Part shown: piece after piece, positions 10,839 through 33,914 of the stretch
Position numbering within the stretch: position 1 is the first letter of the stretch
How the letters are laid out: each line of letters opens with the position of its first letter
Source of the DNA: Deltaproteobacteria bacterium
GTDB taxonomy: Bacteria > Myxococcota_A > Polyangia > Haliangiales > Haliangiaceae
Length of the DNA stretch: 38,306 bases
Direction: 5' to 3'
NCBI GenBank assembly: GCA_013812655.1
Contig: JACCTC010000090.1
Span: forward strand, 1-38,306
Position numbers and translations under genes: made by a program
Notes under the pieces: generated by a model
Told to the model about the DNA's origin: nothing
Database searches by the model: none
What the model saw: the letters and a program-made list of their open reading frames with translations, nothing else

Positions 10839-11548
10839 GACACGTAGTCCTTTCGAGAGCGTTCGACCCCGAGGGTCGGGAGGACAAAACAAGATGGCCG
10901 GCGCCGGTGACCGCCAGCGCGCCGTGGCCTCGCACGCAAAAAGGCGGACGAGACGGTGACGCGCGGCTCCGTTCCGTCGAGGTGCGAGGCGATCCGTGAC
11001 GTGCGCACGCGATCACGGACCAGAGGCTGGCGACCGCGCGGGCATGACCGGTTTCGATTCGAGCTCGACGTGACGTGGTCGGGTGAAACCCTTCCGGGCG
11101 ATCACCGACGACGACCTGCTCAGGTTTTTTGGCGGTTTACGAGACCGCTGGGATGTTGGGATGAGCAAGCCCAGTGCGTTTACCGTTACGCCACCGCTCC
11201 ATTGTGTGGAGTGGGAAGGAGTCGAACCTTCATATCCCTGGTCTCATCGGGACCCAGTCGCCCCCGGGACGTCGTGCTTGCGAACGCGCCCCTCAAAACC
11301 CTGTGACGATCCTGTGGAGATCGACCGGGCGTGCACACCGACGCCGGTTTGGCCTGAGCGCGCGAGCGCCCGACGAGGAGGAGACGAATAAGCCATCTCC
11401 TGCAGATCGTCAATCGCAAACTTGTCGACGATTGTCACGCTCGCCGGATCGCGAGCGGCGGTGCGCGGTTAGTGCGAGTCGTCGCGCGTGAAGCACCTCT
11501 CGCTGGCGCGCGGTTGAGCTCGCCGGTCGGCTCGTGCGAGCGTGCGCC
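10839..11548. other. 710-base gene-free region with tRNA-like element
   Basis: Several short frames cross this region, but none has lipobox, domain or codon-bias support. The minus strand at 11158-11252 carries tRNA-like arms, described separately. Past it on the minus strand, about 11131-11150 forms a GCGGT...ACCGC hairpin followed by six A. The remainder (11260-11530) shows nothing I can name. Confidence 0.6.
11158..11252 (-). ncRNA. Circularly permuted tRNA-like element (3' half before 5' half)
   Basis: Read on the minus strand, a perfect T-arm comes first (11231-11215: stem GAAGG/CCTTC, loop TTCGACT with all invariant bases). It is followed by a 7-base acceptor 3' strand CCACTCC and discriminator A (11214-11207). 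After only six bases comes an acceptor 5' strand GGAGCGG (11200-11194), U8, G9 and a canonical D-arm (11191-11176: 4-bp stem GCGT/ACGC, loop AACGGTAA with G18G19). A26 and CTGGG, the start of an anticodon stem, follow. The acceptor strands pair at 6 of 7 positions (one C-A). CTGG (11174-11171) can pair with CCAG (11241-11238), and CTCATC (11165-11160) with GATGAG (11248-11243), closing the molecule. No normally ordered tRNA can be drawn here. Permuted tRNA, permuted tmRNA or a rearranged tRNA fossil are the options. Confidence 0.45.
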
Positions 11549-12106
11549 ATGCGCGAGCTCTTGCTGAGTGGAATCCTCGTCGTGACGGCATGTGGTGAAG
11601 ACGGAGGTGGCGGCGGAGGTGGCGCCGACGCGGCGGTCGATACGGTCGATGCGCCGCCCGGAACCTGCGGGATCACCGGCACCGGCACCGGCACCGTCAC
11701 CGGGACGGTCGACGGCCGGGAGGTGTCGCCGGTGATGCGCGCGTTTCAGCTCGCGGTGCCCGGCCAGGGCGTCGGCATCGTGCTCGACGAGACGGCGGGC
11801 GCCGCATGCGGCAGCCCAGCGGCGACCGGCGAGCGCATGATCCTCGGATTCTGCGCCGCACCGACAATGCGGACCTATGCGGTCGTCGGCGAGCAGGCGT
11901 TCCAGTGCCCGGGCATGAACGCGTTCGGCCTGATGGAGACCGACGGCGGCCAGGACTGGGGCGAGAGCAGCGGCGGTAGCATCACGATCGCGAGCGTGAC
12001 CGCTGACTGCGTGACAGGGACGTTCGACGTGAACCTCATCCCACGCAACGGACCCGGTACGCCGGTCCCGGTCACCGGGCAGTTCGCTGCCGTGATCTGC
12101 CCGTAG
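11549..12106 (+). CDS. Small secreted lipoprotein, function unknown
   Basis: A 185-residue protein. ATG 11549 gives a short signal peptide with lipobox VTAC (Cys15), followed by a linker of seven consecutive Gly and an Asp/Ala-rich spacer typical of myxobacterial surface lipoproteins. The mature domain (about 45-185) is rich in Gly/Thr with six Cys, probably disulphide-bonded, and alternates short beta-strands, including ITGTGTGTVTGTVDGREV. An in-frame GTG at 11534 would put extra residues before the signal and is less likely. No family recognised. It faces the IgGFc-binding-domain gene tail to tail across the 32-base repeats. Confidence 0.75.
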   Translation: MRELLLSGILVVTACGEDGGGGGGGADAAVDTVDAPPGTCGITGTGTGTVTGTVDGREVSPVMRAFQLAVPGQGVGIVLDETAGAACGSPAATGERMILGFCAAPTMRTYAVVGEQAFQCPGMNAFGLMETDGGQDWGESSGGSITIASVTADCVTGTFDVNLIPRNGPGTPVPVTGQFAAVICP

Positions 12107-31464: not shown

Positions 31465-33738
31465 TCACGACAGCTGATCGAGCTCGAGCGGCACGCTCTG
31501 GATCGACGGCATGTCGGTGGGCAGCTTGCGCTCGAGGGCTGCCATCGCCAGCGCGTCGAGAAAGGCCGACGACCACGAACACGGATTTTCGGAGGTCACG
31601 ACCGCATGCAGACGCGCGTGCCGGGTCACGCGCTCGGTGAGCGGCATGCGGAGCGCGCGATCGAGGTCGGCGGCGAGCCCGTCGGGATGGAACGGGTTCG
31701 TGATCACGGCATCGGTGAGCTGGGTCGCCGCGCCGGCGAATCGCGACAGCACGAGCACGCCCGGTGATTCTGCGTCCTGGGCGGCGACGAACTCCTTGGC
31801 GACGAGGTTCATGCCGTCGCGCAGCGGCGTCACGACCGCGACGCTCGCGAGCCGGTAGAGCTGCGCGAGCACCGTGTGGTCGTACGAGCGGTACAGGTAG
31901 CGGACCGGGATCCAGTCGGCTTCACCGAACTTGCCGTTGATGCGCCCGACCATCGTCTCGATGCGCTGACGTAGCTCGGCGTAGTCGGCGAGCTCCGCGC
32001 GCGAGGGCACCGAGACCTGGACGAAGCTGACCCGGCGCCGCCACTCGGGATAGCTCTCGAGGAGCCGCTCGAATGCCGCGAGCCGCTCGGGGATGCCCTT
32101 CGAGTAATCGAGGCGATCGACGCCGAGCAGCAGCCTGCGGTCGCCGAGCTGTGCCCGGAGGCCGCTGACATCGGAGCACTCGGGCCCGTCCGGCGTGAAC
32201 GCCGTGGCGTCGATGGGGACCGGGAACACGCCGACCACGGTTCGGCGCGTGCCCTGCGTGATCGTGCTGGCGGTGACGCTCGTCGCGGGTTGCCGGCGGG
32301 CGACGTCGACGAAGTGGCCGGCCCAGCGCTCGGTGTGAAAACCGACGAGGTCGTAGTCGAGCAAACCATCGACGAGCTCGGCCTGCCACGGCATCGTCTC
32401 GAACAGCTCGTACGGCGGGAACGGGATGTGAAGGAAGAACCCGATCGGACCGCGATGGCCGAGCCGCCTGAGCTCGCGGGCGACGAGCAGCAAGTGATAG
32501 TCATGGACCCAGATCGTCGCGTCCGGGCGCGCGAGCGCGACGGCGTGGCGCGCGTAGGCTTCGTTCGCCTCGACGTACGCCTTCCAGTCGGCGTCGTCGT
32601 AGCGCGTGCGCATCGGGAAGCTGTGGAACAGCGGCCACAACGTGCGGTTGCAGAAGCCGCCGTAGAACTTCTCGCGCCAGACGCGCGAGAGATCGAAGCT
32701 GGCCCGCGGCGGTTCGGCGAGCGCGTCGATCGCGAGTGTCTCCTTGCCATCGCGTTCGTGGCCGCTCCAGCCGAGCCAGATCCCTTGCCGGCTGCGCAGG
32801 GCCGGCTCGAGCGCCGACACCAGTCCACCGACCTCGCGGCCGCGACCGGTCGCGACACTCGGCGTTCGATTCGAGATCGTCACGAACGTTCGCTCGCGCG
32901 CAGGCTGCAGCTCGACGACCGGTCCCACCGGTGGCGGGCCGAGATCGCTGGCGCCGGCTCGACAGCTCGTGAGCCACCGCACCAGCTCGAGGACGGCGTG
33001 CGGCCCCGCCAGTGATGCATGGGCGAGCGTGCGCCGGCGATGGTCACCGACCGAGGCCCCGACGTCGCCGTCGACGAGCTCGGCAAACATGTCCTCGTCG
33101 CTGACATCCGCGCCGATCGCGATGATGCGCGCTGGTGGTAGATGTTCGCGCACGCGGCGGACCGCGATCCCGCGCGTGATGTTGCGCCTGCGCACTTCGA
33201 GGCTCTCGAGACCGGCGACGCGCTCGAAGTCCTGGTGTGTCTCGAGCCACTCGTCACAGGCCAGCTCGGCAGCCGCCATGAGCGAGATGCGGTCGGCATG
33301 ATCGACCCCGCGCCAGTGGATGCACACCGCGTGGGACTTGTGCTCGGTGCGAGCGGGCTGAACGCACGCAAGCTCGGCGAGCGTGGTCGCGAGGTCATCG
33401 AGCTCCGCAGACCGCTCCGCAGGCCCCGTCCACACGCCGCGAATGAGCTGCCAGGCGCCGTGCTCGGCGAACCACCACGCGCCGATCAGCCGATCCACGA
33501 GCGGTTCGATGGTGGCACGTGGTCGACCGGACACGATGACGACATGGATGCCACCGTCGATCGCTTGCTGGATCGCGGCGACCGTCGCGTCGTCGAGCGT
33601 TGCCTGCTCGGGCGTCGCGGCAAGCTCGACGAGGGCACCGTCGAGATCGAGCAGCAGCGAGAGGCCGTGGTAGCAGGCGAGCTCGCGCCAGCGCGCGGAA
33701 TCGGGCAACGAGAACGCAAGGTTCGTATACATGGGCAT
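31465..33738 (-). CDS. Fused trehalose-6-phosphate phosphatase (N) and synthase (C)
   Basis: A 757-residue bifunctional protein. The N-terminal HAD phosphatase (about 15-245) has motif I LLLDLDGALVEL (Asp31, Asp33), motif II VVIVSGRP and motif III GADVSDEDMF. From about 285 it is a GT20 synthase, with SNRTPSV, GGLVSALEP, VHDYHLLLVARELR, LLGVDRLDYSKGIPERL and TPLRDGMNLVAKEFV. Together they would make trehalose from UDP-glucose and glucose-6-phosphate. The order is the reverse of the common TPS-TPP fusion. All synthase residues look intact. ATG 33738 (MPMYTNLAFS) is preferred over an in-frame GTG at 33834; ATG 33732 is also possible. Confidence 0.9.
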   Translation of the reverse strand: MPMYTNLAFSLPDSARWRELACYHGLSLLLDLDGALVELAATPEQATLDDATVAAIQQAIDGGIHVVIVSGRPRATIEPLVDRLIGAWWFAEHGAWQLIRGVWTGPAERSAELDDLATTLAELACVQPARTEHKSHAVCIHWRGVDHADRISLMAAAELACDEWLETHQDFERVAGLESLEVRRRNITRGIAVRRVREHLPPARIIAIGADVSDEDMFAELVDGDVGASVGDHRRRTLAHASLAGPHAVLELVRWLTSCRAGASDLGPPPVGPVVELQPARERTFVTISNRTPSVATGRGREVGGLVSALEPALRSRQGIWLGWSGHERDGKETLAIDALAEPPRASFDLSRVWREKFYGGFCNRTLWPLFHSFPMRTRYDDADWKAYVEANEAYARHAVALARPDATIWVHDYHLLLVARELRRLGHRGPIGFFLHIPFPPYELFETMPWQAELVDGLLDYDLVGFHTERWAGHFVDVARRQPATSVTASTITQGTRRTVVGVFPVPIDATAFTPDGPECSDVSGLRAQLGDRRLLLGVDRLDYSKGIPERLAAFERLLESYPEWRRRVSFVQVSVPSRAELADYAELRQRIETMVGRINGKFGEADWIPVRYLYRSYDHTVLAQLYRLASVAVVTPLRDGMNLVAKEFVAAQDAESPGVLVLSRFAGAATQLTDAVITNPFHPDGLAADLDRALRMPLTERVTRHARLHAVVTSENPCSWSSAFLDALAMAALERKLPTDMPSIQSVPLELDQLS

Positions 33739-33914
33739 TCCGGTTCGGAAGGCGGCCCGACCCCCCGCGATGCCTGCAGCCGACCTGGCTGCACCCTGAA
33801 GTATTCGTATGTGCTCAAACGATATGATTGTCACGATCGAATTACAAGTGACTTTGGCCGCGCACGTCCGTGAGACGCGCTACCTGTCTGAGATCACTAC
33901 GAGCGAGCCGCGCG

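Follow-up and report, generated by a model that had tools for sequence, protein, structure and literature searches.

A permuted tRNA-mimicking RNA upstream of slipin-like genes in Myxococcota

Organization of the locus

The window analysed here is a stretch of 38,306 nucleotides from a Deltaproteobacteria bacterium (Myxococcota_A, family Haliangiaceae; GenBank assembly GCA_013812655.1, contig JACCTC010000090.1, positions 1 to 38,306). Its minus strand carries a gene for an SPFH/Band_7 (slipin-like) protein and, upstream of this gene, the RNA described below (Table 1); other loci, genomes and contigs are designated by L, G and C numbers. An earlier sequence-only reading had noted a tRNA-like element in which a T-arm and the acceptor 3′ strand precede the acceptor 5′ strand and a D-arm. 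This swapped order was found at the place that it had given (minus strand, 11252-11158), as was the acceptor pairing at six of seven positions; the element as we delimit it spans about 11254-11109. The D-arm is followed by the anticodon-like hairpin, ATCCC, the GCGGT/ACCGC hairpin, A6 and TGAGC, in that order. In the window element the acceptor is not followed by CCA. The same reading had placed the element in a gene-free setting, whereas the region is not isolated, the SPFH gene following it.

In an alignment of seven sequences, the TTGACG of the putative promoter was kept in all seven and a TAGT box in five. Folding of seven full-length relatives predicted separate 5′ and 3′ domains, each with its own closing helix, with both supporting and broken pairs. 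P1, predicted by RNAalifold to close the 5′ domain, had two-sided changes in some pairs and breaks in others, and the helix predicted to close the 3′ domain was suggested by RNAalifold and lengthened by eye. A pseudoknot considered early in the analysis, between GAGAC and the CTC of the hairpin loop, clashed with P1 in the full-length fold and was dropped.

A search with ARAGORN and covariance models, as proposed earlier, did not name a tRNA or tmRNA at the site: ARAGORN found neither in the window, and an Rfam search of 10850-11560 at E 10 gave nothing beyond four matches, which are weak and unrelated. A permuted group I intron-exon arrangement was also rejected, as its core-like CCTGAGC was seen by eye only and had no Rfam support. 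Elsewhere in the window, an nhaA-I motif (RF03057, 44.8 bits; 33796-33747, minus strand) lies within the opening codons of a trehalose-phosphate synthase/phosphatase gene, if this is taken as its longest ORF (31465-33834); the true start of the gene may lie further inside the ORF.

Table 1. Features of the RNA locus and the adjoining gene in the window. Counts of paired cells refer to 15 hand-parsed sequences.
Feature	Position	Strand	Sequence or pairing	Basis
SPFH/Band_7 (slipin-like) protein, 363 aa	9747..10838	-		Pfam PF01145, E 1.8e-27
Putative sigma70-like promoter	11385..11413	-	TTGACG 11413-11408, 17-nt spacer, TATTCG 11390-11385	Read from sequence
5′ domain	11243..11377	-	Closed by P1: CTCGTCGGG 11377-11369 / CCCGATGAG 11251-11243	Predicted
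Variable-arm-like helix, 5′ strand	11234..11238	-	GGGAT, partner 11154-11150
T-arm	11215..11231	-	GAAGG-TTCGACT-CCTTC	Read from sequence and scanner; 74/75 cells paired
Acceptor 3′ strand	11208..11214	-	CCACTCC	99/105 cells paired
Linker, acceptor 3′ to 5′ strand	11201..11207	-	ACACAAT (A73 plus six bases)
Acceptor 5′ strand	11194..11200	-	GGAGCGG	6/7 pairs with acceptor 3′ strand in the window
D-arm	11176..11191	-	GCGT-AACGGTAA-ACGC	45/45 cells paired, over 3 pairs
Anticodon-like hairpin	11157..11173	-	TGGG-CTTGCTCAT-CCCA	Stem invariant in 15/15
Anticodon-like loop bases	11166-11162	-	GCTCA, pseudoknot partner of TGAGC
Variable-arm-like helix, 3′ strand	11150..11154	-	ATCCC, partner of GGGAT, which shortly precedes the T-arm
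Hairpin	11132..11148	-	GCGGT-CTCGTAA-ACCGC	Alignment of relatives
A6 linker	11125..11130	-	A6	Window sequence and relatives
Pseudoknot strand	11118..11122	-	TGAGC, pairs with loop GCTCA	73/75 cells paired
3′ domain, then T-rich	10896..11116	-	Closed by GGTCGTCGTCGGTGA 11116-11102 / TCACCGGCGCCGGCC 10910-10896	Predicted

Covariation supports the permuted core

A purpose-written scanner for permuted units found the window element and gave two hits in 60 block-shuffled windows searched on both strands, so that the element is just moderately unlikely from the window alone. Its folding energy gave no signal (z -0.25 and -1.0). A DNA search of 30 genomes of the family gave some match at E 0.1 in 24 of them, and 12 of the matching loci were inspected, the window's own included. 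An exact 23-base core was present on six named contigs, from metagenome-assembled genomes of Kofleriaceae (2), Myxococcales (2) and deltaproteobacteria (2). Covariance model R1 was built from eight sequences. At E 1e-6 it matched 16 of the order's 35 genomes, at E 1e-5 it matched 54 of 289 genomes across the class, and at E 1e-8 it matched 15 of 377 across the phylum, these matches being a mixture of the window type and other permuted tRNA-like units. An exact-pattern scan of viral contigs gave no match. The conserved RNA occurs in several groups of myxobacteria-like bacteria.

Among relatives the acceptor strands vary yet pair (CTGGCCC/GGGCCGG, CTGCCGC/GCGGCGG and CAGCTCC/GGAGCTG). In alignment A2, which has eight rows including the window, 95.8% of cells were paired, 12 pairs had two-sided changes compared with a shuffle mean of 4.9, and the covariation score was 0.275 compared with 0.109 in shuffles. 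None of 500 shuffles reached the covariation of A2 on four measures, and 2 of 500 did so on a fifth. A2 and a further alignment, A6, leave out L009, the interrupted copies L054 and L007, and L117 and L118. Linkers between the acceptor strands were 5-35 nt long in other window-type RNAs, except for the 159 nt of L009.

We also parsed 15 Myxococcota sequences by hand, a set that includes the window and leaves aside L054 and L007. All passed a check of element order except L066, which has about five acceptor pairs and was kept in the counts (14/15). The helix registers in these counts, that of the variable-arm-like helix among them, were chosen by hand. Both sides had changed at six of the seven acceptor positions and at three of the four positions in the core of the variable-arm-like helix; this 4-bp core was paired in 60 of 60 cells, and the helix was paired in 85% of cells on A2. 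The anticodon-like stem (60/60 cells paired) has no covariation because it is identical in all 15 sequences. Four compensations were found in the pseudoknot that joins the anticodon-like loop to the strand following A6: GCACA/TGTGC (L009), GCCA/TGGC (L012), ACTCA/TGAGT (L117) and GATCA/TGATC (L118). Loops paired with their own partners at four or five of five positions, and with swapped partners at one to five (mean 3.5). The discriminator was A in most window-type units read and G in L012 and L066.

Because the relatives covary beyond the shuffles, we regard the permuted tRNA-like element as confirmed by comparative sequence analysis, and the same covariation establishes the predicted core structure and its permuted topology. 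In the alignment of relatives that the sequence-only reading had proposed, the acceptor and the D- and T-arms are retained, and the arms vary in step. Two of its details fared less well: the outer helices CTGG/CCAG and CTCATC/GATGAG are not kept in the aligned relatives, and its anticodon loop CTTGCAG is unconfirmed, the relatives having the anticodon-like hairpin of Table 1.

One further copy, in G004 (L054 and L055), is split between C392, which carries an integrase-like ORF (by eye), and C156; the two halves have a 22-base stretch, GTAAACGCACTGGGCTTGCTCA, in common. This looks like an integration site inside a tRNA-like gene.

The RNA is linked to SPFH genes

The distance from the element to the SPFH start was about 255-530 nt in window-type loci. 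Of the window-type loci, 14 retain the 3′ half intact; a regular expression found a similar downstream ORF in 12 of these, and an SPFH-like ORF was read by eye in the remaining two (L009 and L099); L117 and L118 also have an SPFH-like ORF downstream. Pfam recognized Band_7 in all eight ORFs submitted, from L099, L100, L117 and L118 and from four loci whose RNA differs from the window type (L102, L103, L109 and L111). Among the R1 matches whose downstream ORFs were listed, an SPFH-like start was absent downstream of L101, L104, L105, L107, L108, L113, L114, L119 and L120.

As an independent test of linkage we used the 30 loci returned for SPFH homologues, which were present at E 1e-30 in just 41 of 377 genomes. 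A permuted unit lay on the sense strand within 1.5 kb upstream in 16 of the 30 loci; none lay downstream (0/30) or antisense (0/30). These 16 hits were obtained in 0.235 Mb of real sequence, compared with 3 in 9.41 Mb of block-shuffled loci. R1 identified a 17th linked locus, L131. Several tRNA types are represented among the linked units, some of which have acceptor linkers of just 2-6 nt. Neither the scanner nor the R1 list gave a permuted unit in the other 13 loci, of which five (L140, L141, L143, L145 and L150) have ARAGORN tRNAs upstream on the sense strand and eight have neither. From these data we conclude that the permuted RNA and the SPFH gene are linked within Myxococcota.

Outside the phylum, a relaxed scan of four plasmid SPFH loci gave one doubtful hit (L153, with an 86-nt linker) and no clear permuted unit, and the YrlA model had no match in these loci at E 0.1. 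Odd tRNA-like genes lie upstream in two plasmid SPFH loci (L152 and L154). No phage match was found for the SPFH protein, and a search of open-licence papers found none linking slipin to Y RNA or tRNA-like RNA.

Permuted units in other settings

Arrays of permuted units were seen at L081:9967-11059, L082:2493-3246, L083:6858-7653 and in L095 (minus strand). By eye, their units have anticodon arms with differing anticodons, and most share the scaffold CTACACGC ... ACTCGG and an outer stem GCGCCC/GGGCGC. In L081 and L082 a gene for a VWA-domain protein comes directly after the array, the domain scoring 29.4 bits in L082 and just under cut-off in L081. This protein was found in 7 of 28 family genomes, and scaffold units precede its gene in L093-L096 and not in L097 or L098. 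Its identification as Ro60 is not supported (no phmmer match; hhalign probability 1.2, with shallow profiles). The Rfam YrlA model had a single match, below cut-off, in each of L083 and L095. Permuted units also form tandem pairs, spaced by about 165 nt, at L027:7243-7478, at L026:6614-6850 and in L071, L074, L077 and L078, and L075 has a single unit of this type. The pairs adjoin a DUF7873 gene in the two loci with genes checked, and their second unit encodes NCCA in seven of seven cases.

Relation to YrlA and Ro60

Circular permutation of a Y RNA has already been published: YrlA of Salmonella (6CU1) can be superposed on tRNA if the order of parts is circularly permuted (PMC11472068). A review describes mimicry of the D, T and acceptor parts by YrlA, together with an Rsr-binding stem and tethering of PNPase (PMC8394870). 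The Rfam YrlA model (RF02553) matched 9 of the 18 SPFH loci scanned, out of the 30, at E 1.2e-7 to 0.19; all nine matches, including the best (L134, 47.8 bits), lie below the gathering score of 69 bits. Eight of them sit on the scanner-found unit, where they fall within positions 23 to 88 of the 114 in the model; the ninth (L149) extends over the full model but belongs to a neighbouring unit. The model had no match at E 10 to the window or to L121, L122, L123, L129, L131 and L132, and none at E 0.1 to L003, L004, L006 and L012. Because it misses the window type, we describe the RNA as a variant that would work like YrlA and not as a member of that family. It is probably a permuted tRNA mimic that resembles YrlA but carries additional structure and has slipin, in place of Ro60, as its neighbour.

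Ro60 (rsr) is not near the RNA in the window's own genome, lying on contig C445 with the RNA on C427, and neither Ro60 nor RtcB is encoded in the window, both being on other contigs. This Rsr-like Ro60 (E 7.8e-123 to 2nvo) is found at L025:3591-8582, surrounded by the 19 tRNA genes that the first 16 kb of C445 contain. Chen et al. (2014) reportedly found tRNA-like Y RNAs close to Ro60 in many bacteria. Ro60 was present in 9 of 11 window-type carriers compared with 8 of 17 other family genomes, which is suggestive on these small numbers. The permuted-unit scanner had no hit in six Ro60 loci (L048-L053; flanks of 1.5 kb or less), so it does not recover Y RNAs at these loci.

Alternative explanations

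The element could be a cis-acting leader, in which tRNA enzymes would bind or cut the tRNA-like fold and thereby switch expression of the SPFH gene. Its distance from the SPFH start in window-type loci is in favour of this possibility, as is the T-rich end of the 3′ domain, which lies shortly ahead of the ribosome site in the seven-sequence alignment. However, the closing helix would span about 220 nt, unlike that of an ordinary terminator, and permuted tRNA-like units also occur in arrays with no SPFH gene seen adjoining. We consider a leader function doubtful.

A true permuted tRNA gene, whose linker would be opened by RNase P and 3′ processing so that the two halves work as a tRNA, is improbable. 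Circularly permuted tRNA genes are described in archaea and algae (PMC3978253 and PMC3218864), and the order of tRNA parts is common to these genes and the window RNA. The acceptor, D- and T-arms are complete in their swapped order, the discriminator is A in most window-type units, and NCCA is encoded by the second unit of the related pairs. Unlike the archaeal and algal genes, however, the window RNA has no CCA, the outer helices proposed earlier as its bulge-helix-bulge-like junction are absent in relatives, and its anticodon-like loop is not free, since it covaries with an internal partner. In addition, some SPFH-linked units have acceptor linkers of 2-6 nt, and the bacterial Y RNA YrlA has the same topology (PMC11472068). 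For these reasons a permuted tRNA gene is unsupported; the description as a circularly permuted tRNA-like element holds as anatomy and not as a statement about a tRNA gene.

A permuted, two-piece tmRNA, the main alternative of the sequence-only reading, is very improbable. It would share with the window RNA the permuted order of acceptor, T- and D-arms and a hairpin followed by an A-rich linker; the hairpin, A6 and GCN resemble what we take, by eye against the E. coli sequence, to be PK1 and the resume codon. A search for an ordinary ssrA gene had also been proposed, and the window's own genome has no tmRNA over cut-off. However, 23 of 28 family genomes have a standard one-piece tmRNA that scores over cut-off, among them nine carriers of the window RNA (G004, G012, G017, G022-G025, G027 and G029), although carriers G000 and G026 have none at that score. 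The D-arm is canonical, there is no G3-U70, no tag frame ending in Leu-Ala-Ala was seen by eye, and neither ARAGORN nor tmRNA models matched the site. The stretch after A6 that would encode the tag is predicted to be the upstream strand of the helix that closes the 3′ domain, and this, together with ordinary tmRNA in most family genomes, leaves a permuted tmRNA unsupported.

Chance resemblance or a pseudogene remnant, which the scanner null and weak folding z-scores of the window by itself might have suggested, is refuted by covariation: several families of Myxococcota keep the element, and its paired positions change in compensation.

Proposed function

The best explanation, to which we assign a probability of roughly 60%, is that the element belongs to an SPFH-linked, YrlA-like tRNA-mimic RNA that would act with slipin in tRNA damage or translational stress. 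The non-coding RNA, structured and about 500 nt long, would be made from its own promoter directly upstream of the SPFH gene and is probably transcribed together with it. Its core is a permuted tRNA mimic composed of T-arm, acceptor, D-arm, anticodon-like hairpin and variable-arm helix, with the acceptor stem closed by the linker and the 'anticodon' loop bound internally by the strand after A6. Acting like YrlA, the RNA would offer a tRNA-shaped surface to tRNA-binding proteins and would not serve in translation, and the RNA and the neighbouring slipin would respond together to tRNA damage or translational stress. We infer the single transcript, the two side domains, the partner proteins and the role in tRNA damage. 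The RNA may be an undescribed part of tRNA-damage handling in such cells.

A more speculative extension, which we put forward tentatively, is that SPFH assemblies and a dedicated permuted RNA with a pseudoknot-locked loop form a second tRNA-mimic RNP beside that of Ro60 and Y RNA, in which cutting or unlocking of the loop by tRNA-damaging enzymes might signal to slipin. Where slipin genes stand in RNA-repair and tRNA-array settings, the SPFH-linked tRNA-mimic RNA provides a concrete RNA partner to test. It also suggests that Y RNAs acting as tRNA mimics are not confined to Ro60, and it adds an RNA group that is supported by covariance and whose anticodon loop is held in an internal pseudoknot.

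Comparison with known systems

Slipins are also found in settings of RNA repair and tRNA arrays. On a plasmid of Citrobacter freundii (L151:3540-7493), a slipin gene is divergent from rtcR, which encodes an RNA-repair regulator, and is followed by a nucleotidyltransferase gene; a T-arm-like hairpin was seen by eye in the rtcR-slipin gap. In Anabaena, the genes whose expression rises when TrcR is missing include slipin alr0740 and rtcB, and a tRNA array is likewise under repression by TrcR (PMC10272220); a second study reports changes in the same genes and warns of a possible erythromycin effect (PMC9938897). The rtcR/rtcBA setting of Citrobacter and the Anabaena TrcR regulon resemble the locus here in having a slipin, and ordinary tRNAs lie near several of the SPFH genes here. 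Unlike those settings, the window has no rtcB and no ARAGORN tRNA. The context in Citrobacter and Anabaena, together with that of Ro60, supports, without showing, a role in tRNA damage or translational stress.

YrlA (RF02553; 6CU1) and the window RNA are both circularly permuted mimics of the acceptor, D- and T-arms, and the middle of the Rfam model, taken as its tRNA-like part, is matched by several SPFH-linked relatives, whereas the window type is not matched. YrlA is encoded near Ro60, whereas the RNA here neighbours SPFH. In YrlA the 5′ and 3′ ends pair into a Ro60-binding stem; for window-type RNA the alignment fold gave two closed side domains instead and predicted no such pairing. Unlike YrlA, window-type RNA has an extra anticodon-like arm, a variable-arm helix and a pseudoknot.
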